From the IMG/VR virus record IMGVR_UViG_3300049846_000354, positions 1 through 20,038 of that record: a DNA stretch of 20,038 nt. One strand, 5' to 3'. The stretch comes from a virus. Below are positions 6,458 to 20,038 of the stretch, piece by piece. Both the position numbers and the translations under genes were made by a program. Under the pieces are notes generated by a model that was not told where the DNA came from, did no database searches, and saw only the letters and a program-made list of their open reading frames with translations. The first letter of the stretch is position 1. Every line of letters begins with the position of its first letter.

Positions 6458-6531
6458 GCGGGAGTGGTATAGTGGTTGTGCCCTAGCCTTCCACGCTAGT
6501 GACGCGGGTTCGATTCCCGCTTCCCGCTCCA
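6458..6531 (+). tRNA. tRNA-Gly(UCC)
   Basis: Acceptor GCGGGAG pairs with TTCCCGC (one G-U). The anticodon stem CTAGC/GCTAG closes loop CTTCCAC, anticodon TCC, reading GGA/GGG. The T arm is GCGGG, TTCGATT, CCCGC. The D stem is weak, with G-U pairs. CCA is encoded (6529-6531). First RNA of the island, 7 bases after the small membrane-protein gene. Confidence 0.95.
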
Positions 6532-6538
6532 CTGATTA

Positions 6539-6611
6539 GGGGCTATGACGAAGGCGTCGGGTCTGCCTTGCACGCAGTACCAGGAGGGGGCGGTACCCTC
6601 TAGTTCCACCA
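6539..6611 (+). ncRNA. Degenerate tRNA-Ala(UGC)-like element
   Basis: A 73-base element in a tRNA-sized slot between tRNA-Gly and tRNA-Trp. Acceptor GGGGCTA pairs fully with TAGTTCC (two G-U), giving the G3:U70 pair and A73 that AlaRS recognises, followed by encoded CCA. The anticodon arm CTGC, CTTGCAC, GCAG carries TGC and is almost that of E. coli tRNA-Ala(UGC). The outer 27:43 pair is T-T. The D region is only 14 bases and folds as GACG, AAGG, CGTC. The T stem GAGGG/CCCTC is perfect, but its loop is GGCGGTA in place of TTCRANY. A normal L-shape through D-loop/T-loop contacts looks impossible. It is either a decaying tRNA gene or a tRNA mimic. Confidence 0.65.
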
Positions 6612-6613
6612 AC

Positions 6614-6689
6614 GTTCCGGTAGCTCAATTGGCAGAGCGGCGGTCTCCAAAGCCGTAGGTTGTAGGTTCGAGTCCTACCCGGTTCGCCA
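6614..6689 (+). tRNA. tRNA-Trp(CCA)
   Basis: Anticodon loop CTCCAAA gives CCA. The D stem GCTC/GAGC and T arm GTAGG, TTCGAGT, CCTAC are canonical. Discriminator is G73, as in bacterial tRNA-Trp, and CCA is encoded. The acceptor GTTCCGG against CCGGTTC has two adjacent T-T mismatches (2:71 and 3:70), which is unusual. Confidence 0.9.
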
Positions 6690-6696
6690 CCTTTGA

Positions 6697-6771
6697 TGGG
6701 GTATAGTGCAATGGTTAGCACGACGGATTTTGATTCCGTTAGTCTAGGTTCGAGTCCTAGTGCCCCTGCCA
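6697..6771 (+). tRNA. tRNA-Gln(UUG)
   Basis: Acceptor TGGGGTA against TGCCCCT leaves position 1:72 unpaired (T-T); a weak 1:72 pair is a known GlnRS preference. The anticodon stem ACGGA/TCCGT closes loop TTTTGAT, anticodon TTG, reading CAA. The T arm CTAGG, TTCGAGT, CCTAG is canonical. G73 and CCA are encoded. Confidence 0.93.
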
Positions 6772-6877: not shown

Positions 6878-6954
6878 GCCCTCGTGGCGGAATTGGTATA
6901 CGCACCAGATTTAGGTTCTGGCTACTGCAGGTTCGAGTCCTGTCGAGGGTACCA
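6878..6954 (+). tRNA. tRNA-Leu(UAG) lacking the long variable arm
   Basis: Acceptor GCCCTCG pairs with CGAGGGT (G1-U72 wobble). The anticodon stem CCAGA/TCTGG closes loop TTTAGGT, anticodon TAG, reading CTA/CTG; this arm is the same as in E. coli tRNA-Leu(UAG). A73 and CCA are encoded. The variable region is only CTACT (5 bases), whereas bacterial tRNA-Leu is class II with a long variable stem. The D arm (GCGG...CGC) with its large loop remains leucine-like. Confidence 0.9.
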
Positions 6955-6967
6955 ATAAGGAAGCAGT

Positions 6968-7183
6968 ATGGAAAGATACATTCGCTTCAAGATGTTCGGC
7001 AAAGAAAGAACAGTCAAGGCGACTATCTACAACAGCGACGGTACTGGAGAGTACGACGACACTCTCTGGGTTGAGAACAATGTAGACCTATACGCGCTAA
7101 TGTCGCCACAGCTCAAAGGAAAACGAGTAGCTGTTGTTGAAAGAAAAGACTGGCTTAATGCCGATCCAGACAACTTCGTTTAG
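6968..7183 (+). CDS. Small hypothetical protein ending inside tRNA-Pro
   Basis: A 71-residue protein of unknown function with AAGGAAG at about 6957-6963 before its ATG. The sequence alternates basic and acidic strands (YIRFKMFGKERTVKATIY, then DGTGEYDDTLWVENN), giving a small beta-rich impression. Its last codons and its TAG stop (7181-7183) are the first 10 bases of tRNA-Pro, where the stop forms the beginning of the conserved TAGCTC before the D arm. No family recognised. Confidence 0.65.
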   Translation: MERYIRFKMFGKERTVKATIYNSDGTGEYDDTLWVENNVDLYALMSPQLKGKRVAVVERKDWLNADPDNFV

Positions 7184-7250
7184 CTCAGTCTGGTAGAGCG
7201 CCTGCTTTGGGAGCAGGGGGTCGGGGGTTCAAGTCCCTCAACGAAGACCA
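7174..7250 (+). tRNA. tRNA-Pro(UGG)
   Basis: Acceptor CTTCGTT pairs perfectly with AACGAAG, keeping the C1:G72 pair typical of bacterial tRNA-Pro. The anticodon stem CCTGC/GCAGG closes loop TTTGGGA, anticodon TGG. The D stem GCTC/GAGC and T loop TTCAAGT are canonical. A73 and CCA are encoded. The 5' end overlaps the end of the preceding coding frame by 10 bases. Confidence 0.96.
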
Positions 7251-7251
7251 A

Positions 7252-7327
7252 GCCGGGTTAGCTCAGCAGGTAGAGCAACCGCCTTGTAAGCGGTAGGTCG
7301 CAGGTTCGATTCCTGCACCCGGCACCA
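7252..7327 (+). tRNA. tRNA-Thr(UGU)
   Basis: Acceptor GCCGGGT pairs perfectly with ACCCGGC. The anticodon stem ACCGC/GCGGT closes loop CTTGTAA, anticodon TGT. D stem GCTC/GAGC; T arm GCAGG, TTCGATT, CCTGC. A73 and CCA are encoded. It starts one base after tRNA-Pro, so the two are surely processed from one transcript. Last RNA of the island. Confidence 0.97.
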
Positions 7328-8326: not shown

Positions 8327-9100
8327 ATGCAACCGCTAGTCGATGGCGATATCCTCGTCTACCGCTGCGGATTCGCTGCCGACTCGCAGATGCGACAGCG
8401 CATCGAGGCGGAAGGTAAGACAAGGCAAGAGGCTGAAGAGACCCTACTTGATCTAGACTACCAGGCGTTCGCGCTAGGCAACGCCAAGACCGTGCTAGTG
8501 AGCATTGAAGACAAGTACGGGCCAATCAACGGCCATATCTACCTGACCGGCAAAGGCAACTTCCGTGAACAGGTAGCTACCATTAAGCCTTACAAGGGTA
8601 ACCGCGACGCCAAGCACAAGCCTAAGTACTACAAGGAAATCCGCGACTACATGCTGGATGTGTGGGCTGGCAAGCTAGTAGCAGGGTACGAGGCTGATGA
8701 CGAACTCGGAATGTTGCAGACCTACATGGGGGACAATAGTATCATTGTCACCATAGATAAGGATCTGGACATGATCCAGGGTCATCACTTCAATCCTACG
8801 ACTGGCGACCAGTACTACTGCTCCGAGCAGTTCGCCAACTCACGATTCTTCTGGCAGATGCTAGTAGGTGACCAGGTGGATAACATCCCAGGCATCAGGG
8901 GCATTGGCCCAAAGACTGCTGACAAGATCGTTGAAGAGTGCCGAGCTGATGTGGATGCAATGCGTCACGTTGTACAAGAGAGGTACGCTAAGCAATACGG
9001 CGAAGGCTGGGAAGAGGCGTACAAAGAAGTCGGGCGCCTACTATGGATTGCCCGTTACCCAGAAGAAATTGAAGAAGGAAGCCCACTACTATGGTCCTGA
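8327..9100 (+). CDS. 5'-3' exonuclease, FEN/T7 gp6-type
   Basis: A structure-specific 5' nuclease of 257 residues, supplying the activity that Pol I carries in cis but this phage polymerase lacks: primer removal, and probably degradation of host DNA. The PIN-like catalytic site is visible in order: D6 (LVDGD), the basic arch region with YKGNRDAKHKPKY (89-101), YEADD (E122, D124, D125), TIDKDLD (D144, D146) and GDQVDNIPGIRGIGPKTA (181-198), which combines the last acidic residues with a helix-hairpin-helix/H3TH DNA-binding turn. The ATG is 2 bases after the previous stop. Its last 10 bases overlap the macro-domain gene. Confidence 0.93.
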   Translation: MQPLVDGDILVYRCGFAADSQMRQRIEAEGKTRQEAEETLLDLDYQAFALGNAKTVLVSIEDKYGPINGHIYLTGKGNFREQVATIKPYKGNRDAKHKPKYYKEIRDYMLDVWAGKLVAGYEADDELGMLQTYMGDNSIIVTIDKDLDMIQGHHFNPTTGDQYYCSEQFANSRFFWQMLVGDQVDNIPGIRGIGPKTADKIVEECRADVDAMRHVVQERYAKQYGEGWEEAYKEVGRLLWIARYPEEIEEGSPLLWS

Positions 9101-9528
9101 GAAAAGGCAACATGTTCGACGTGTGGGGCAGGGATGATCTGTTCCTGTTCACCTCTAACCCTGTCGTAAATGCCCGCGGCCTCGCCGTGATGGGACGTGG
9201 TATGGCAAAGCAGCTAGCTGATAGGCACCCAAAGATCAGAGAAGACTTCGGTACGATCCTTACCTGCAACGCCTTCTTCCCTCCCGTCGGAGAGATTGGA
9301 GTCTACGACGAGCAGACCGTTGGCTACTTCATGGTCAAGCGCGATTGGTCCATGCCGGCCGAGCTGCCCCTGATCGAGAACTCTACCCACTACCTGGGAG
9401 CTATCGCATACCAGTACGATAGAATCAACCTAAACTTCCCAGGAATTGGGAATGGGAACCTGCGCCGAGAGTGGGTACTCCCTATCATTGCACTACTACC
9501 AGACAACGTACATGTCTGGGAATGCTAA
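9091..9528 (+). CDS. Macro-domain protein (ADP-ribose binding/hydrolysing)
   Basis: A 145-residue single macro domain. FTSNPVVNARGLAVMGRGMA (residues 20-39) is the N-terminal ribose/phosphate loop with the N-x-x-G-x-M-G-x-G-x-A pattern, and FPGIGNGNLRREWVLP (116-131) is the second glycine-rich loop plus helix. Macro domains bind ADP-ribose and some remove it from proteins or DNA; in a phage this could reverse ADP-ribosylation by host defence toxins or act on signalling nucleotides, but the sequence does not show which. It starts inside the exonuclease end. A second Met at residue 8, behind AAAGG, is a possible alternative start. Confidence 0.82.
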   Translation: MVLRKGNMFDVWGRDDLFLFTSNPVVNARGLAVMGRGMAKQLADRHPKIREDFGTILTCNAFFPPVGEIGVYDEQTVGYFMVKRDWSMPAELPLIENSTHYLGAIAYQYDRINLNFPGIGNGNLRREWVLPIIALLPDNVHVWEC

Positions 9529-9791: not shown

Positions 9792-10291
9792 TGCCAGCAA
9801 AGAAGAAGCCGCAAGGGAAGGCGGCACCCAAGCTACGCAGCGGGTTCGAGAAGAAGGTCAAGGACAGCTTGGAGAAGCGTGGCGTTAGCTACGAGTACGA
9901 GAGTACCAACGTCCCTTACGTCGTGCCTGAATCCAAGCACCGATACGTCCCTGACTTCAAGCTACCCAACGGCGTGTTCGTTGAAGCCAAGGGTAAGTTT
10001 GACGCAGCGGCCCGCAAAAAGATGTCGCTAGTAATTGAGCAGAATCCGGATGTAGATGTTCGTATGCTGTTTATGCGAGACAATAAGCTGACGAAGAGCA
10101 GCAAAACCAAGTACTCTGATTGGTGCGAGAAGCGTGGCATCGCATACCACGTATCCGCCGCTGGAGAGATTCCGGCAGAGTGGTTGGAAATTAAGAAAAA
10201 GGAAAATGCCAATGAAGATTGTGGGCGTAACAAACATGGAAGACGAGGAGTTCGTGGCAATCCTGACGTTCCGAAGCCAAGGAAACGATAA
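9791..10291 (+). CDS. Endonuclease I, Holliday-junction resolvase (T7 gp3-like)
   Basis: A branch-specific endonuclease that cuts four-way junctions and branched replication intermediates and helps break down host DNA. The match to T7 gp3 is close enough to keep the numbering: E20 (SGFEKK), D55 (YVPDF), E65 and K67 (VEAKG) line up with the T7 catalytic residues, and NVPYVVPESKHRYVPDF parallels the T7 segment. The C-terminal WCEKRGI and IPAEW also match. Total 166 residues against 149 in T7; the extra C-terminus from about residue 141 is basic and lies in the 80-base overlap with the next gene. Start is the TAATG coupling. Confidence 0.95.
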   Translation: MPAKKKPQGKAAPKLRSGFEKKVKDSLEKRGVSYEYESTNVPYVVPESKHRYVPDFKLPNGVFVEAKGKFDAAARKKMSLVIEQNPDVDVRMLFMRDNKLTKSSKTKYSDWCEKRGIAYHVSAAGEIPAEWLEIKKKENANEDCGRNKHGRRGVRGNPDVPKPRKR

Positions 10292-11294: not shown

Positions 11295-11762
11295 ATGACT
11301 ACTGTAGTGTGGTCAGCTAAGCACCGGGCGCTGGCAGCAGATAGACAAGTGGGATCGCCTATTGTACAGAAGCCCAAGATCCTGGATGCCGGTAAGTATC
11401 TTCTTGCCGGCGCTGGGTACTACGATGATCTGTACGAAGTGGCCCTGTGGTTGTCCAAGGGAGCAAACGAAGATCAGAAGCCTGAGCTTCCTGATAGAGA
11501 CGGAGGGGACTCCAACTTCCTTGTTGTGACCAAGGACACTGGCGAAGCGGCGTGGCTAACTACCCCGTTCCTTCGTCCAGTTCCGATTCACGAAGAGTTC
11601 TACACACTAGGTAGTGGTGGAGACTACGCACTCGGTGCTCTCATGGCCGGGGCCAATCCTGCCAAAGCTATAGCCATCGCCATCATGCTGGATCCTCAGT
11701 CTGGCGGAGAGGTCGATGTGATCAAGCTGCCCATCAAGAAGGCAGCTAAACAGAAAGGATAA
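11295..11762 (+). CDS. HslV/proteasome-like Ntn hydrolase
   Basis: A 155-residue protein resembling one catalytic subunit of the HslV peptidase. MTTVVW at the start would expose Thr2 as the N-terminal nucleophile after Met removal. AADRQ (D16) matches the conserved AGDGQ Asp, and lysines at 26 and 28 lie where HslV has its catalytic Lys. YLLAGAG (35-41) fits the GFAG strand, and LGSGGDYALGALMAGA (105-120) matches the IGSGGPYAQAAA helix. No HslU-like unfoldase is in the window, so it may work alone or with a host ATPase. HslV is about 176 residues. Family placement is from motif memory. Confidence 0.75.
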   Translation: MTTVVWSAKHRALAADRQVGSPIVQKPKILDAGKYLLAGAGYYDDLYEVALWLSKGANEDQKPELPDRDGGDSNFLVVTKDTGEAAWLTTPFLRPVPIHEEFYTLGSGGDYALGALMAGANPAKAIAIAIMLDPQSGGEVDVIKLPIKKAAKQKG

Positions 11763-12867: not shown

Positions 12868-14169
12868 TCAATTTAGCCTGTCATGACGCTGCATAACTCC
12901 TGCTCTCTGGGAGTTTCTCATAGCCTCGAACGCACCTCTAGCAGCGTCGCCTTGTAGCACGGTTGTAACCGCACCGGAGGTGAATGCACCAGCAGCCCCC
13001 AGGCCTACGCCTGGTCCACCGGCAGAGGCGGAGATTTGCTGGATTTGTGCTGGCGTGTAACCAGCTCTTGCCAGACCAGCGACGCCTTGAGAGGCGTAGA
13101 TAGCACGCGGGTCTTGTGCTCTTTGCACAGCTCTGGCTAGCGCTGCTTGCGCCGCGTCTCTCAGAGCTGGATCGTTGTTGATAGGAATGGTGCCTGCGCC
13201 TCTAGTCCTAGCGGCCATCGCCTCCATGAGTTGATTGATGTTTCCAGTGCCGTTACGGATAGCCTCGATCATTTGGCGATAGGTGTCAGCCGCGCCGATT
13301 CTCTCCATGCCGTTCAGCACAGCCCAGTTACGCAGCTCTCTGGCAACAGGGTTGTCGCTGGTTCTCAGCCAGCCGTCCGGATTGTTCAACATACGGTTAA
13401 GCGCAAAGCGCGAACCGAAGTTCTCAGTGACAGGCAAGCCGCCGAATAGACTACGATCAATCAGACCAGCAGCGATGTTGCCGGGATTCCAGATACCGCC
13501 TTGGATAGCGTCGCCAGGAATCAGGGCGTCAAGAAGGTTACCTCCCCAGCCAGTAGGATTGCGGAGCCAGCCGCCGACGCCTGTGGTAGGTAGACCGCTG
13601 AAGCTGAGGCCGCTACCCGCTCCGCCGGAGCCGACGTTCCACGCGCCCGCGAACTGCGGTGCGGTCAGGCCAAAGCCGAAGCCGGGCTGGCTGTAGCTGG
13701 TGTTAAGGCTGCCACCACCTGTGCTATGCGACGGTGTAGGACCGCCAAGCATCCAGCCGCCTGATCCAACGGGATATAGGTTTCCGCTAGAGCCAGAGCC
13801 TATCGGCGCTTGCGTACCGCCTGTAGGCGGGACACCTCCACCTCCTCCGCCTCCTCCTGGGTTCGACACCCATCCACCGCCTGTACCGCCACCACCGCCC
13901 CCGCCGCCAAAGTTTGGTAGCGGGAAAGGTAGAGCTGGGGCCACAGCAATGGGTCCGAACGGAGAGAGACCAGATCCTCCTAGAGGATTGATTCTCCACT
14001 GATCGTACGCGTTAGACACAGGCGGTAGATAGCCACCCTGTGGTGGGGTAGTGTTATATACGGTATTCGGATTACCGTTGTTCGCTAGAAAAGGAGATGA
14101 TCCCTGCGCTAGCGATTGGGTTCCAATACCCTGTTGTAGGAACTGCTGTCCGCTGAACGGATTACTCAT
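12868..14169 (-). CDS. Glycine-rich low-complexity virion-type protein
   Basis: A 433-residue protein of unrecognised family. The N-terminal half (about 1-200) is low complexity, rich in G, P, S and N, with two runs of eight Gly near residues 88-112, and should be disordered or collagen-like in flexibility. The C-terminal part (about 225-433) is normal, with predicted helices and alanine-rich stretches (ALRDAAQAALARAVQRAQD). Its ATG lies in an ATGAGTAA overlap with the giant protein gene, behind GGAGAG. Placement after the giant virion protein suggests an internal or tail-associated structural protein. No catalytic motif seen. Confidence 0.75.
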   Translation of the reverse strand: MSNPFSGQQFLQQGIGTQSLAQGSSPFLANNGNPNTVYNTTPPQGGYLPPVSNAYDQWRINPLGGSGLSPFGPIAVAPALPFPLPNFGGGGGGGGTGGGWVSNPGGGGGGGGVPPTGGTQAPIGSGSSGNLYPVGSGGWMLGGPTPSHSTGGGSLNTSYSQPGFGFGLTAPQFAGAWNVGSGGAGSGLSFSGLPTTGVGGWLRNPTGWGGNLLDALIPGDAIQGGIWNPGNIAAGLIDRSLFGGLPVTENFGSRFALNRMLNNPDGWLRTSDNPVARELRNWAVLNGMERIGAADTYRQMIEAIRNGTGNINQLMEAMAARTRGAGTIPINNDPALRDAAQAALARAVQRAQDPRAIYASQGVAGLARAGYTPAQIQQISASAGGPGVGLGAAGAFTSGAVTTVLQGDAARGAFEAMRNSQRAGVMQRHDRLN

Positions 14170-17100
14170 TGGTTCTCTCCTTATCTAGTAGTTGCTTCAG
14201 AATCAGTAGCTTGCCTCTTCTCTCCAGCGCTCTCTGTGCTCTCTCTTCCGCAGGCAGGTTCTTGTCTTGTAGCTCGCCCGCCTTGACAATCGAGTCTACG
14301 TTGAGTAGACCAGTACCGACCATGTTCCTGCCTTGCAGCAGCATGGCAATGTCTTGTGCCTGCACCTTGTTGTCACGCATTATTTTCATCGCTTGCTGCG
14401 GCGTGTAGCCGTAGTCCAACATACCGACAAAGACCTCGCGTAGTCTGTCGTACCTTGCAATCTCTCCGTCCCGTAGTTCGTAGAAGCGCTCGATTGCAGC
14501 GTCGTAACCGCGAACATCCAGAGCCTCGTTGATCACGGCACGTCCCTCTCGCTGGTACTTCTCAAGATCGTTGCCGGCCATGAACGCAGCGCGTTCTGGA
14601 TCCGCCGCTTGCAGGCGACCACCTGTGTACAGCAGCAACATAGCCATGACCTTCTCGTTAGCGTCCTGGTCCTTGGTCGGCCAGGCGTTATCGCTATCGA
14701 GAGCATCCAGCATACCCGGAGTCAGGCCGTCGATCACTTGCACGATAGCCTCACCATCCTCGTAGTCCAGTCCAGGCAGTGAATCGATGATGCCCTTCAT
14801 GTAGTTCGTGGCCTGCGGGAACAGACGCTCGATCTTACCCTTCTTGTTCTTCACGTCTTCGTTGTCGCTGAACATGGCGCGTGTCACGTTTGCCATGTCG
14901 GTCAGGATGCGTGGCTTAATCCACAGATCCTTCATGTGCTCAACGATAGCACGTGTCTTGGCACCAGGCTCGTCGTCCGACGCCAGGATACGCAGCATGT
15001 CATTGAATGGACCAAGCGGATCAAAGCGGCTGAGCGTAAAGAACACCGGGTTGTCCTTGTTGTCCTTGCCCAGGTACAGCGAGTGGCCGTAACGGAAGTC
15101 AGGGAACAGGAACTTGGTAGCTGCCTCGATCATACTCTCGTCATCGTCGTCGTTGAAGAATGCCTGCAGTCCACGTGTGAGGAACGCGAGTCCAACGGTA
15201 GCCGCTGTAGCACCAGTCAGGCGGCGACCGCCTTCGATTGCATACAGCATACGACCCTCGTCAGTCTTGGCGTTGACAGCCGCTAGGAAGTCCTTGTACG
15301 CCTGAGCGTACGAGTAAAACACCGAACGGAACACACCCTGCATGTATGGAGCGTACTGTGCCAGAGGCACGCGCTCGACCATCTTGACAATAGGCGCCGC
15401 GCGCTGGAAGGTGATCGTGGTATCCTTTGTCATGTCAGCGGCCATGCGCTCCATCTGCTCCTGAGTCCAGCCGTTACCTTCGGCCTGGTTCAGCTTCTCA
15501 AGGAAGCGCAGTCTGCCAAGGAACACAGCCGGCTTGACCCACGCATCCGACAGCGCAAAGCCTTCCGTGATGGTACCCTTGGCACGGCCAGCAACCTTGC
15601 CGATCTTGTGCAGGACCTTGCGTACGCCGGCTCCTGTCGAATCCTCGTTCATAGCAACGACCAGTTCCTTCAGCATCTTGATCGGAGTAGAGCGCAGTTC
15701 TTGACCGACGGCCGAGTCGAGCAGGCCGTACTTCAGGAACAGCTCCAGGTCAGCGTTACGCTGCAGAGCGTCGAACTCCACACCCGCGATCTTCATGCGG
15801 CCAGGGGTTGCCTGGTCACCGATCATCGCTACAGCGGCGCCGATAGCACGACTCACATCCTGCGGACTGGTCACACCGTTCTGAACCATGATGCCTGCCG
15901 AACCGATCAGGTTGATCCAGGTGTTAGCCACGTCTAGGACGATGTTCATGTACTTGCTGAGGCTCGCTAGGTTACGCACACCAGCCACGGCCTTCATGGA
16001 GCTAGCCTCGACAGCACGATCCACCGAAGCGTGAGACTGCGACAGCGCCGTGCTCAGCGGAGTGAAGATGTCCAGACCGTCGTTGATCGCAGCTGCAATC
16101 GTGGGCTTGACTCGCATACCATTCAGGGGACCCCATTGCTCGCCGGACAGCTCTTCGGTGAAGCTAGCGTACTCATCGCTAGACCTGAACGTCTCGGGCG
16201 ACACGAACCACTTGCCCTCGCCGGACTCGTAGATTTCGCGGAGCATGCGCATACGTGCGGCCAGCTCGCCCTGCTTTGCAAGGGTGATAGCCACGCGGGT
16301 AGCCAGGTCATCAACCTCGCCGAACAGGTTGCGGATATCCTCTGGCACCAGCTCTCGCTTTTGCAGGATGCCGGTGTCTTCCTTGAACCCACGGTAGTAG
16401 GTGATAACGGGGTTACTAGCCTCGTGCATTCCGAGCATACCGTTAACAATCCATTCAGCCTCTCGGCGAATCTTGTCAGGATCCAGGTTCTTGCCAGCCA
16501 CAGCGATGGCATCCTCGGCCGCAGCTCGTAGCGCCTTGCGCTTAGCCACGATACCCTTGATGGTCTTATCCTTCTCGATGCGGTTCTTGAGCGGAGTAAT
16601 GTCACCGACCCACGTCTCGTACAGGTACATCAGCTTGTCCATCTTCTGTGCAGCCAGCATGCCTGGATCAAACACAGCCAGGTCGTTGTTGATCACGAAG
16701 CGCACAGCGCGCTCGTAGATTTCAAACGAATGACGGTAGGACGGCGGCAGCTCCTTGCCCTTCTCCTTCAGCTTCTTGGCGATAGCCCATTCCTTCAGCA
16801 GCTGCTGGTTACGCTTGTCGCCTTCCTTGCCCTGGAACGCGGCATAGGTACGAGTGAAATAGGCGTAGCGATTCTTGATGATCGCCCCGTACTTACGCAG
16901 TTCAGCCTCCGTGAACGGACGCGGATCCTTTGCTCGCTCCTGCACGATGCGCTTGGACATGGCAGCGATGTCATCCAGTGCATCCATGATTGGCTGTAGC
17001 TCAGGGTTAGCTCGCACGAAGCGGGCGATGAGCGCTTCACGTCGAGCTGGGTCATCCACGCGAGCAGCCTGCTCGAACAGGCGGTTGAGCTTCTTGTTGA

Positions 17101-20038
17101 CAGCAGCCTCGGACACGCCCTTGCGCTCCGCGTACTTTGCAACAGCGCCCTGGATACGGTGGTAACTACCTTCCGCCACGTAGGCGATAGATGCCGCCTC
17201 ACTGTCCGCGAGTTCCTTCATGTTACCCAGAGCACGGCCCAGCACACCGAAGCCAGAGAACTGGCCGATGACAGTCTTGAGCGCGTTAGCCCAGTTACCG
17301 TAGTTCAGCGTCATCTTAGCAGACAGGACGGCACGCTCCGTGGCAGCAGCCACAGTACTAGCCACTGGCTTGTCGGCGATAGAGTTGAACCCGTCTAGTA
17401 GCGGCGGCGCTGCCGTGTCTTCGTCGTCTACCTCTTGTTCTTCGTTAGCGTCCCAGGCCTTGGCTGTGCCCTTCAGGCCTAGCTTGGACTTACGTGCCGG
17501 AGGTGGCGTAAAGATACCGTTGCCCCACCACTTGAGTCCTTGCTGAATAGCTTGTAGGTACTGCTCATCTGTGGTGTTGCGATTACCTTGAGTAAGGCGC
17601 GCATCAATCTCGCCCTGTAGATTTGTGTAGGTTTTGAAGGCAGCAGCGTAGGCAGCGTCGTACTTCGCCTTGTGATCGCTGATGTTATCTGCAAGTCGCT
17701 GCATAGTAGCGATACTAGCCGCGACCTCGCTGTTAACGAAGTCATCGTCTAGCCCTTGCAGTACAGTGATCAGCTCCCGCACGTTGTCAGGATCCGTCAT
17801 GTCACCCACAAAGTCTCCTGACAGATAGGCATCAATTTCCTGCAGGTCTTCTGGAGAACCAGCATTCTTTGCGATAGCCATCCGTCCGATTGTAGCAGCC
17901 ATATCATTCATGGCCTTTTGCCAAATCGGGATCTGTCTTTGCGTGCGCAGTAGGTCAGGATCCATGAACATCTCTGGGCTACCGCCGTAAGCAAAGCCCT
18001 CGAATGCCTGGATTGCGTGTTGTAGCTCGTGCAAGATAATGCCAGTGTGTTCAAAGAATCCAGACTTGTTAGGATTTAGATTGATCGTATTGTTCTTGTA
18101 CTCGAACGATCCCTTCGCCTTCATCTTGGGATTCAGGACCAGCTTCATAGTAGCAATCTCAGGATAGCCTTCGGCCAGATAGCCTACGTCAAAGAAGTCG
18201 GACAGCATGAACTCGCCGCTCATGTTGTGCTTGATTTCCTGTAGCTGCTTGATCTTGTTGGCGTCGGACAGGATAGCCTTCTGCTTACCGTCACTAGGAT
18301 CGATGTACGTCAAACCCTTATCCACCTGCTCCTGGAAGCGTGGGTGCTGCGGGCCGATGATCATGTTAAGCGGAACATTAAGCGGCTTAACAGCCTTTGT
18401 GCTCTTGTCAGTTAGTGCTGTCTGCTCCAGCAGCTTCTTGGCTAGATACTCGATATCCTTGACGTTAACGTTGTCACTACCTGTAACAGCGGCAAGTCTT
18501 GTACGCAGAGCAGACACGGCATTACGCGCCAGGGAAGGCAGGCCCTTGCTCTTGTTGGAGAGTGCCTCAGAGATGTAGTACGTAGCAACTTCGTTCTGGT
18601 ACACCCAGTCCTGGACGCGCTTGTTCCTATAGGCGTTAGCCGCACTTCTCGCGCGATCCTTGGCTCGCTTGGCGATAGGGCTGTTGTCCTTCTCGATGGC
18701 AGCAACTAGGCGCTTGTTAGCATCCTGGCCGACAAAGTTGCGGAAGAACGCCTTCAGCTTTACAGGACCGAGGCTGACATCGGTGGCTAGGGTAGCTGTG
18801 TCAGAAAAGTCGGCAGTGTGCTTTGCTTCGTGGGCAGCAACTTCAAGCATCATACCTTCCACGTTGTCTGTGTCTAGCGCTCCTGCGACAAGATACATGC
18901 GGTCGCCGTTGTACTTACCAGCAACGCCAGGCGTAGACTTGCCTGGGATCTGGGACGCATCATCAACGATCACCAGCTTACCGTCCGCGATCAGTTTACC
19001 TAGAGTTGCAGCAGAACGGTTGCTGGTAACCTTTGCACGGATAGCGGCAATCACATCCTCTGCTGTCCTCTTAGGTCTGCTAGGCTCTGCCTCAGCCCAC
19101 CCCTTCGGTGACTGGGAGCTTAGTCCAAAGTTACGGATCTCATCCTCGTCCATGTCCGGCGGACGCTGCGGCTGTTCCGGCTCGCTCGTGATATCGCCCT
19201 GCTCTTCGACCACAGGCTGAGCCACTTCGGCAGGCGCTGCCTTCTTCGGGCGGCCACGCTTCTTGGGCACAGGCGCTGGCTGCTCAACGACCGGAGCCGG
19301 AGCAACTGGGGCTGGAGTAGGAGCAGGAGCTGGTGCTGGTTGCTGCGCTCTGCGCTCGGCAAGAACCATCTCTGCGGTCACGCCGACACGCGCCATCTCC
19401 TGAGCGATAGCGTTACCAGGGTTGGCGGCGGCTTGTCTGCGCAGTTCCTCTGTGCGATAGGATGCTTCAATCTCCGCGTCCTTACGCTCTTCGTCTGTGA
19501 TAGCTTGGTTAGCCTGTTCCTGCTCACGCTGACGGAACGCTTGCTCCTTGGCAGTCTGCTGGGCGATAAGCTCGTCTTGGCGAGCAGCGTCAGCATCAGC
19601 GGCGTCTTGTAGCTCAGCGCCCTGTCTAGTCATGCTGATGTTTCTCATGACGCTCTGGGCAGCCTGCTGACGACGCTGTTCCTCACGGGCAGCAGCTTCG
19701 GCCTTGGCCTGATCGCGCAGTGGCTTGCCGTACTTCTTATCGCCTTCGTCTAGTGCGTTTACGCGCTGGCCGTTTTCGTAAGCAACCTGGAAGATAGAGG
19801 CAGGGCTGGATAGCGCAGCACCGCCAAACATACCGGAGAATGCAGCACGACGTGCATCTTCCCACAGATCTTGCGAGCGCTGGGTAGTGGCGTAGTTAGA
19901 TAGCTCTTCGTTGCCTAGCTGCTGGAACCCTACCTTGACGCCTTCTTGGGCCAGGGTAGTGAGCGCTTCCTCGCCGCCTTCCTTAAGCGATGTGCCGAGA
20001 ATATCGCCGGTCAGTCTGCGGGTCGTAGTCTGCAGCAG
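14162..20038 (-). CDS. Giant polyvalent-type virion/ejection protein (N-terminus beyond window)
   Basis: At least 1,958 residues, open to the right edge, so partial; the Met at 19831 is internal because the frame continues upstream without a stop. From the N-terminal side: a Q/E/A/R-rich coiled coil (about 19750-19400); a Pro-Ala linker (about 19350-19270); an AT-hook-like KKRGRPKK (about 19266-19243); HEAKH (18832-18818) and HELQH in LHELQHAIQAFEGFAYGG (HELQH 18031-18017), both zincin-type HExxH motifs; then a long helical C-terminal half. WVKPAVFLGRLRFLEKLN (around 15540-15480) recalls the LPD38-type end of phage polyvalent proteins. Such proteins are packaged and injected with the DNA. Domain names are from memory; the HELQH part resembles LPD23. 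Confidence 0.85.
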   Translation of the reverse strand: MLQTTTRRLTGDILGTSLKEGGEEALTTLAQEGVKVGFQQLGNEELSNYATTQRSQDLWEDARRAAFSGMFGGAALSSPASIFQVAYENGQRVNALDEGDKKYGKPLRDQAKAEAAAREEQRRQQAAQSVMRNISMTRQGAELQDAADADAARQDELIAQQTAKEQAFRQREQEQANQAITDEERKDAEIEASYRTEELRRQAAANPGNAIAQEMARVGVTAEMVLAERRAQQPAPAPAPTPAPVAPAPVVEQPAPVPKKRGRPKKAAPAEVAQPVVEEQGDITSEPEQPQRPPDMDEDEIRNFGLSSQSPKGWAEAEPSRPKRTAEDVIAAIRAKVTSNRSAATLGKLIADGKLVIVDDASQIPGKSTPGVAGKYNGDRMYLVAGALDTDNVEGMMLEVAAHEAKHTADFSDTATLATDVSLGPVKLKAFFRNFVGQDANKRLVAAIEKDNSPIAKRAKDRARSAANAYRNKRVQDWVYQNEVATYYISEALSNKSKGLPSLARNAVSALRTRLAAVTGSDNVNVKDIEYLAKKLLEQTALTDKSTKAVKPLNVPLNMIIGPQHPRFQEQVDKGLTYIDPSDGKQKAILSDANKIKQLQEIKHNMSGEFMLSDFFDVGYLAEGYPEIATMKLVLNPKMKAKGSFEYKNNTINLNPNKSGFFEHTGIILHELQHAIQAFEGFAYGGSPEMFMDPDLLRTQRQIPIWQKAMNDMAATIGRMAIAKNAGSPEDLQEIDAYLSGDFVGDMTDPDNVRELITVLQGLDDDFVNSEVAASIATMQRLADNISDHKAKYDAAYAAAFKTYTNLQGEIDARLTQGNRNTTDEQYLQAIQQGLKWWGNGIFTPPPARKSKLGLKGTAKAWDANEEQEVDDEDTAAPPLLDGFNSIADKPVASTVAAATERAVLSAKMTLNYGNWANALKTVIGQFSGFGVLGRALGNMKELADSEAASIAYVAEGSYHRIQGAVAKYAERKGVSEAAVNKKLNRLFEQAARVDDPARREALIARFVRANPELQPIMDALDDIAAMSKRIVQERAKDPRPFTEAELRKYGAIIKNRYAYFTRTYAAFQGKEGDKRNQQLLKEWAIAKKLKEKGKELPPSYRHSFEIYERAVRFVINNDLAVFDPGMLAAQKMDKLMYLYETWVGDITPLKNRIEKDKTIKGIVAKRKALRAAAEDAIAVAGKNLDPDKIRREAEWIVNGMLGMHEASNPVITYYRGFKEDTGILQKRELVPEDIRNLFGEVDDLATRVAITLAKQGELAARMRMLREIYESGEGKWFVSPETFRSSDEYASFTEELSGEQWGPLNGMRVKPTIAAAINDGLDIFTPLSTALSQSHASVDRAVEASSMKAVAGVRNLASLSKYMNIVLDVANTWINLIGSAGIMVQNGVTSPQDVSRAIGAAVAMIGDQATPGRMKIAGVEFDALQRNADLELFLKYGLLDSAVGQELRSTPIKMLKELVVAMNEDSTGAGVRKVLHKIGKVAGRAKGTITEGFALSDAWVKPAVFLGRLRFLEKLNQAEGNGWTQEQMERMAADMTKDTTITFQRAAPIVKMVERVPLAQYAPYMQGVFRSVFYSYAQAYKDFLAAVNAKTDEGRMLYAIEGGRRLTGATAATVGLAFLTRGLQAFFNDDDDESMIEAATKFLFPDFRYGHSLYLGKDNKDNPVFFTLSRFDPLGPFNDMLRILASDDEPGAKTRAIVEHMKDLWIKPRILTDMANVTRAMFSDNEDVKNKKGKIERLFPQATNYMKGIIDSLPGLDYEDGEAIVQVIDGLTPGMLDALDSDNAWPTKDQDANEKVMAMLLLYTGGRLQAADPERAAFMAGNDLEKYQREGRAVINEALDVRGYDAAIERFYELRDGEIARYDRLREVFVGMLDYGYTPQQAMKIMRDNKVQAQDIAMLLQGRNMVGTGLLNVDSIVKAGELQDKNLPAEERAQRALERRGKLLILKQLLDKERTNE

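Follow-up and report, generated by a model that had tools for sequence, protein, structure and literature searches.

What kind of molecule is encoded by a tRNA-sized element that carries a complete alanine charging end next to a D loop and a T loop of non-standard sequence? The question is raised by a 73-nt element in the virus record IMGVR_UViG_3300049846_000354, the whole 20,038 bp of which are referred to here as the window. Its acceptor stem is paired at all seven positions, with G3:U70 and also G4:U69, and continues into A73 and an encoded CCA. These features, G4:U69 apart, together with a position between tRNA-Gly and tRNA-Trp and a perfectly paired T stem (GAGGG/CCCTC) closed by GGCGGTA, had been reported in the first-pass annotation and are borne out by the sequence and the tRNA calls (Table 1). 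The D region, described there as shortened, is indeed short and is better drawn as a hairpin of 4 bp with a 4-nt loop (AAGG), one base past the acceptor. The TGC anticodon arm of the same account does present UGC in a 7-nt loop (CTTGCAC) with U33; its stem, however, is refined to 7 bp with one bulged U (GGU-CUGC/GCAG-U-ACC).

Canonical bacterial tRNA-Ala(UGC) shares with the element the 7-bp acceptor, G3:U70, A73, CCA, the UGC anticodon in a 7-nt U33 loop, and the 5-bp T stem. The element differs in having GGCGGUA in place of the UUCRANY T loop, A18G19 in place of G18G19, a D loop of only 4 nt, a bulged anticodon stem of 7 bp rather than 5 bp, and one acceptor/D linker nucleotide instead of two. 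Numbered as in tRNA, the T loop reads G54 G55 C56 G57 G58 U59 A60, and A18 and G19 of the D loop are assigned by comparison with relatives.

Table 1. Coordinates of the alternative-elbow element and its parts, of the canonical tRNA genes in the window, and of paired tRNA-His genes in other phages
Feature	Position	Strand	Basis
tRNA-Gly(UCC), canonical	6458..6531	+	ARAGORN, Rfam
Putative tRNA-Ala(UGC) gene, alternative elbow, encoded CCA	6539..6611	+	sequence, R1 model, covarying relatives
Acceptor 5' strand GGGGCTA (G3 of G3:U70 at 6541)	6539..6545	+	sequence
D hairpin GACG-AAGG-CGTC (A18 G19 from loop AAGG)	6547..6558	+	stem covariation; A18G19/G55 coupling
Extended anticodon arm GGTCTGC-CTTGCAC-GCAG(T)ACC	6560..6581	+	sequence; 7-bp stems in relatives
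Anticodon TGC	6569-6571	+	sequence
Bulged T of anticodon stem	6578	+	sequence
T arm GAGGG-GGCGGTA-CCCTC, non-canonical loop	6584..6600	+	T loop equals Rfam alpha_tmRNA consensus loop
Acceptor 3' strand TAGTTCC, A73 and CCA	6601..6611	+	sequence
U70; discriminator A73; CCA	6605; 6608; 6609-6611	+	sequence
tRNA-Trp(CCA), canonical, 2 bp downstream of the element	6614..6689	+	ARAGORN, Rfam
tRNA-Gln(UUG), canonical	6697..6771	+	ARAGORN, Rfam
tRNA-Leu(UAG), canonical	6878..6954	+	ARAGORN, Rfam
tRNA-Pro(UGG), canonical	7174..7250	+	ARAGORN, Rfam
tRNA-Thr(UGU), canonical	7252..7327	+	ARAGORN, Rfam
Alternative and canonical tRNA-His(GUG), L003	1455-1528 and 1531-1606		
Alternative and canonical tRNA-His(GUG), Braelyn (L564)	9955-10028 and 10031-10106		

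Standard searches pass over the element: ARAGORN, and Rfam at its gathering cut-offs, call only the six canonical tRNAs of the window. Of the Rfam matches that overlap the T arm of the element, alpha_tmRNA scores highest (13.7 bits), and the folding energy (z = -1.15) is weak evidence by itself. A covariance model, R1, built from a gap-free alignment of 49 tRNAs from which the window element was excluded, returns the element as its top match in the window (39.8 bits, E ~1e-8 by rough calibration); the window's canonical tRNA-Gly scores 38.8 bits with the same model, and the score thus backs the tRNA nature of the element, not its subclass.

A BLAST search of the element against phages matched the T arm alone and led to a His element in Streptomyces phages: the exact T arm occurs in members of the Stanwilliamsviridae, within a cloverleaf whose GUG anticodon, C73, and G-1 constitute His identity. 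Two other sets of BLAST matches were set aside as relatives, those in Aeromonas being ordinary tRNA-Ala anticodon arms and that in Klebsiella cp8 a repeat close to the genome end. Viral contigs were then scanned for the T-loop pattern GGC(A/G)GTA, the contig counts being lower bounds. As GGCRGUA is also the consensus T loop of alpha_tmRNA (RF01849), many of the other pattern matches are permuted tmRNAs. Among the matches listed, more than 150 distinct GGCRGUA cloverleafs passed the structural filter, with anticodons for at least 13 isoacceptors (Ala, Cys, Gly, His, Ile, Lys, Met, Phe, Pro, Gln, Thr, Val, and Trp).

In bacteria the class is sporadic and lies within arrays, including those of Nostocales plasmids. 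The sampled Nostocales arrays, of the long kind known from the trn operon of Anabaena (PMC10272220), contain alternative-elbow tRNAs, among them a tRNA-Ile(GAU) whose T loop is GGCRGUA and others in which it is UGCAACU, but are bacterial, plasmid-borne or chromosomal, whereas the window element is phage-borne. A housekeeping trait of a bacterial lineage was considered and rejected, strong matches being confined to one or a few arrays in each genome checked and matches being present in 1/40 family members and 1/11 genus members, with a cap, in the first look, on how many candidates were scored in each genome. Loci reached through the window's MazG-like protein have few tRNAs and no alternative-elbow tRNA, and the Ala elements of loci L647 and L645 have no match in a named phage or plasmid, the Pseudomonas phage matches there covering only the adjoining tRNA-Asn. 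By its T loop, A18G19 D loop, full cloverleaf, and isoacceptor-matched discriminator, the window element belongs to the class proposed here, a large group of tRNAs from phages and mobile elements that has apparently not been described before.

Recovery of such tRNAs by ARAGORN depends on the T loop: 0/115 for GGCRGUA, 32/40 for UGCRA, and 11/24 for AGCRU, against 236/237 for canonical loops. Phage tRNA inventories drawn from standard finders are therefore incomplete. Some class members are not wholly hidden, since the Rfam tRNA model recovers three alternative tRNAs in contig L080 at gathering score and Streptomyces phage Warpy was deposited with its alternative tRNA annotated as tRNA-His. Pelagibacter phage Mosig has a tRNA-Gly-like gene with an alternative elbow (L559 2501-2574; MT647606 7779-7852) at a site annotated as a 31-aa hypothetical protein.

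The contacts G18-Psi55 and U54-A58 are treated as near-universal in tRNA. Together with G19-C56 they make up the standard elbow (review PMC7912444). Coupling between the two loops was measured in cloverleafs from the fetched loci that have a 7-bp acceptor, 5-bp anticodon and T stems, U33, and CCA, numbering 435 distinct sequences or 357 after clustering at 80% identity. T loops with U55-C56 are accompanied by GG (G18G19) in the D loop in 229/230 cases, and those with G55-C56 by AG (A18G19) in 94/110 under a crude rule; when the 16 exceptions are inspected by eye, each proves to have AG in its loop, with GG confined to the D stem or the positions next to it, giving 110/110. The coupling of positions 18 and 55 has p ~1e-65 in the 357-cloverleaf set and, for T loops other than GGCRGUA, which the search pattern had not selected, p ~1e-48 (229:1 versus 15:61), although both values overstate independence because the sequences are related, the 80% clustering being a partial correction. 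Pair 54.58 switches among U.A, G.G, and A.U, with G19-C56 and a purine at 57 kept throughout, and it does so separately from 18.55, as the T-loop forms UGCRA, AGCRU, GGCRG, AUCGU, and GUCGG attest. With GGCGGUA opposite AAGG, the window element is of the doubly switched form.

The simplest reading is that A18.G55 and G54.G58, in a geometry that we infer, substitute for G18-Psi55 and U54-A58, with G19-C56 retained. The first-pass annotation held that the D-loop/T-loop fold had been lost; the elbow appears instead to have been replaced by coupled alternative contacts, which are common to many phage tRNAs and to tmRNA of the alphaproteobacterial type. Positions 18 and 55 are coupled in the same way in 135/135 GGCRGUA tmRNAs and in a phage tmRNA that is one-piece and has the T loop UGCAACU. 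No description of this coupled elbow was found in the openly licensed literature, to which the claim of novelty is limited.

Across the class, G3:U70 occurs in 40/43 members with an Ala anticodon versus 1/113 others (p = 2e-32), at least one of those lacking it being a mis-called Cys, and this upholds the earlier claim that AlaRS identity is conserved. Discriminator and anticodon agree for Ala, Cys (U73, 6/6), His (C73, 11/11), Gly (U73, 35/37), Lys (A73, 17/17), Pro (A73, 8/8), Ile, and Val, while in Gln and Thr members the discriminator is mixed. Anticodon loops keep U33 and, for the most part, A37, and T stems are diverse in sequence. In the 49 tRNAs of the alignment, the D stem, on which the structural filter placed no demand, is 88% paired, with covariation at each of its four pairs; the remaining stems were filter criteria, and hence only their covariation counts. 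Compensatory changes are present in D, anticodon, and T stems, in keeping with the first-pass view that the element does not reflect random decay.

The closest kin of the window element form a subtype of 13 Ala(UGC) elements, itself included. All have a linker of 0-1 base, a 4-bp D stem, a lengthened anticodon stem, a short variable region, and a GGCRGUA T arm; the D loop starts with AAG and is 4 nt long (5 in L641), and AAGN and G3:U70 are conserved. The anticodon stem is of 7 bp in most, and a bulge or interruption breaks it in several, the window element and L036 among them. L036 is the sole very close relative found and the only locus with nearly the same D arm. Over the D, inner anticodon, and T stems, the counted pairs are 96% paired, against 28-48% when slid, and 11/13 have changed on both sides, with all three helices covarying. 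The relatives thus share the unusual form and are neither ordinary tRNA-Ala nor unrelated sequence, the comparison on which the first-pass annotation had staked its case.

This layout has a precedent in the tRNA-Pyl scaffold (including CMa) and bovine mitochondrial tRNA-Ser(UGA), which likewise combine an acceptor/D linker of 0-1 base with a small D loop (4 nt), an anticodon stem that is longer than usual and carries an extra nucleotide, and a short extra region, of about 3 nt in the tRNA-Pyl scaffold (PMC6337575). All of these are found in the window element. Unlike tRNA-Pyl, the element has a UGC rather than CUA anticodon, Ala identity (G3:U70), a 7-bp stem, and the putative A18.G55/G54.G58 elbow. 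Elsewhere in the class, alternative-elbow tRNAs with a CUA anticodon and G73, possible amber suppressors, occur in L039 (minus strand, ~1004-1080 of the reverse complement) and L041.

The subtype is found in phage tRNA clusters that otherwise consist almost entirely of canonical tRNAs. With Trp and Ala left aside, the window's cluster is of U34 type throughout (Gly, Gln, Leu, Pro, and Thr), a set that Ala UGC fits. Among loci with at least eight ARAGORN tRNAs, a canonical tRNA-Ala is present in 4/22 with an alternative Ala versus 37/81 without (p = 0.026, uncorrected). Ile resembles Ala in that the alternative copy tends to sit where the canonical one is not found, and other isoacceptors show no such pattern. 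A group I intron match (65.2 bits) lies within another phage tRNA cluster (L300 800-990). Outside its cluster, the window encodes a protein matching PHROG 1040, peptidase HslV family (11295-11762; E 1.5e-24), an 1889-aa ORF on the minus strand (14162-19831) with no PHROGs match, and a neighbouring ORF (12868-14169) with no Pfam or PHROGs match.

We give a probability of roughly three-quarters to the reading that the element encodes a working tRNA-Ala(UGC) of the phage, one of a distinct mobile-element class with an alternative elbow, an assignment made from comparative sequence data. The RNA would be cut out of the tRNA-cluster transcript and would take up the L fold through the substitute contacts, with the 0-1 linker, 4-nt D loop, and 7-bp anticodon stem compensating mutually, as in the tRNA-Pyl scaffold, which works with zero linker bases and a 4-nt D loop (PMC6337575). 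Host AlaRS would charge it through G3:U70, judging from the identity elements, and it would then decode GCN codons alongside its U34 neighbours in the cluster.

The element could also be charged and yet be poor in translation, and a non-translating mimic, serving as a decoy for tRNA-targeting defences or as an alanine sink, is the strongest of the rivals, albeit an improbable one. Its elbow and core are non-standard, and Samistivirus phages encode an alternative tRNA-His(GUG) that is followed, after 2 bp, by a canonical tRNA-His(GUG), an adjacency that leaves codon supply alone unable to explain the alternative copy; one of these phages, Braelyn, encodes an RNA ligase and a polynucleotide kinase. 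A decoy has, however, no need for accurate anticodons and discriminators over at least 13 isoacceptors or for the retained U33 and mostly retained A37, and the Ala and Ile pattern described above speaks against it too. An ordinary translating role fits better, given the many identity-matched isoacceptors and the U34 neighbourhood.

A T loop identical to that of RF01849, the nature of the best Rfam match, and the presence of permuted tmRNAs of this kind in many phages could alternatively mean that the element derives from a two-piece alphaproteobacterial tmRNA, by capture of its T arm and acceptor, in which case the T loop would be a recombination relic and not a new elbow. The likeness extends to the A18G19-type D loop, G3:U70, and A73 of the permuted tmRNAs (RF01849, RF04321). 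It had been noted earlier (PMC1168896) that the mitochondrial tmRNA of Reclinomonas has GG in its T loop and that Caulobacter tmRNA has a G where U342 would stand. The window element is nevertheless a single 73-nt piece with a full anticodon arm; it lacks the GGAC that precedes the T stem and the UCGAC that follows the D loop in tmRNA, has no tag reading frame, and gives no gathering-score match to RF01849 or RF04321. T stems of the class vary in sequence. In cloverleafs with UGCRA, AGCRU, and GUCGG T loops, moreover, the contacts switch just as separably and the D loops match, a sign that contacts were selected rather than that a single arm was captured. A tmRNA origin is thus very improbable.

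Several tmRNA-related features were encountered in the same survey. L045 (520-592) carries a tmRNA-like acceptor domain of ~73 nt with GGAC, UUUUGACGG, and GGCGGTA and no room for a tag frame, for which the CDS-less tmRNA mentioned for phage DS6A (PMC11915505) offers a comparison. Many permuted GGCRGUA tmRNAs in viral contigs (L009-L320) are preceded by TATAAATA, which resembles a T4-type late promoter. The 58.9-kb viral contig L080 encodes RNase P RNA (8848-9131; 180.7 bits), a tmRNA with a UGCAACU T loop, and more than 25 tRNAs, many with G55.

Least credible is a decayed tRNA-Ala pseudogene with acceptor and anticodon arms kept by chance, which would suit the silence of ARAGORN and Rfam and the modest folding z, but which is contradicted by the recurrence of the T loop with compensatory stems, by the AAGN and G3:U70 of the Ala relatives, and by the absence from the window element of pairing lost without compensation, and is refuted for the whole class by covariation.

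Within the favoured reading of a functional tRNA-Ala(UGC), the weakest step concerns the reason for rewiring the elbow. The leading guess is escape: a rewired elbow may evade a host tRNA-cleaving or tRNA-modifying factor that reads the standard one, and phage tRNAs would thereby survive attack on host tRNAs. Such escape is conceivable because the element lacks U54, U55, and G18, which modification usually targets. Against a general elbow-reading attacker, most phages with an alternative Ala carry otherwise canonical tRNA sets. There is a parallel in phage tRNAs whose anticodon-loop mutations evade anticodon nucleases (eLife 2023, PMC10264068), in that the change sits where a host factor may read; the window element is altered in the elbow instead, and the main text of that paper makes no mention of T loop, D loop, or elbow. 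It is a speculative and on balance unlikely extension that A18.G55 with a switchable 54.58 is a second elbow code in phages and mobile arrays, one that would keep ribosome and synthetase function while being invisible to host factors reading G18-Psi55 or T54, and so act as a general layer of counter-defence or takeover.

The class represents a recurrent natural swap, in coupled form, of contacts regarded as near-universal; phages and mobile arrays have it in no fewer than 13 isoacceptors, and tmRNA has it too. The class allows a direct test of which elbow contacts the ribosome, the synthetases, and the modifying enzymes require, and it opens to experiment the question of whether phages rewire tRNA to dodge host factors that target it.
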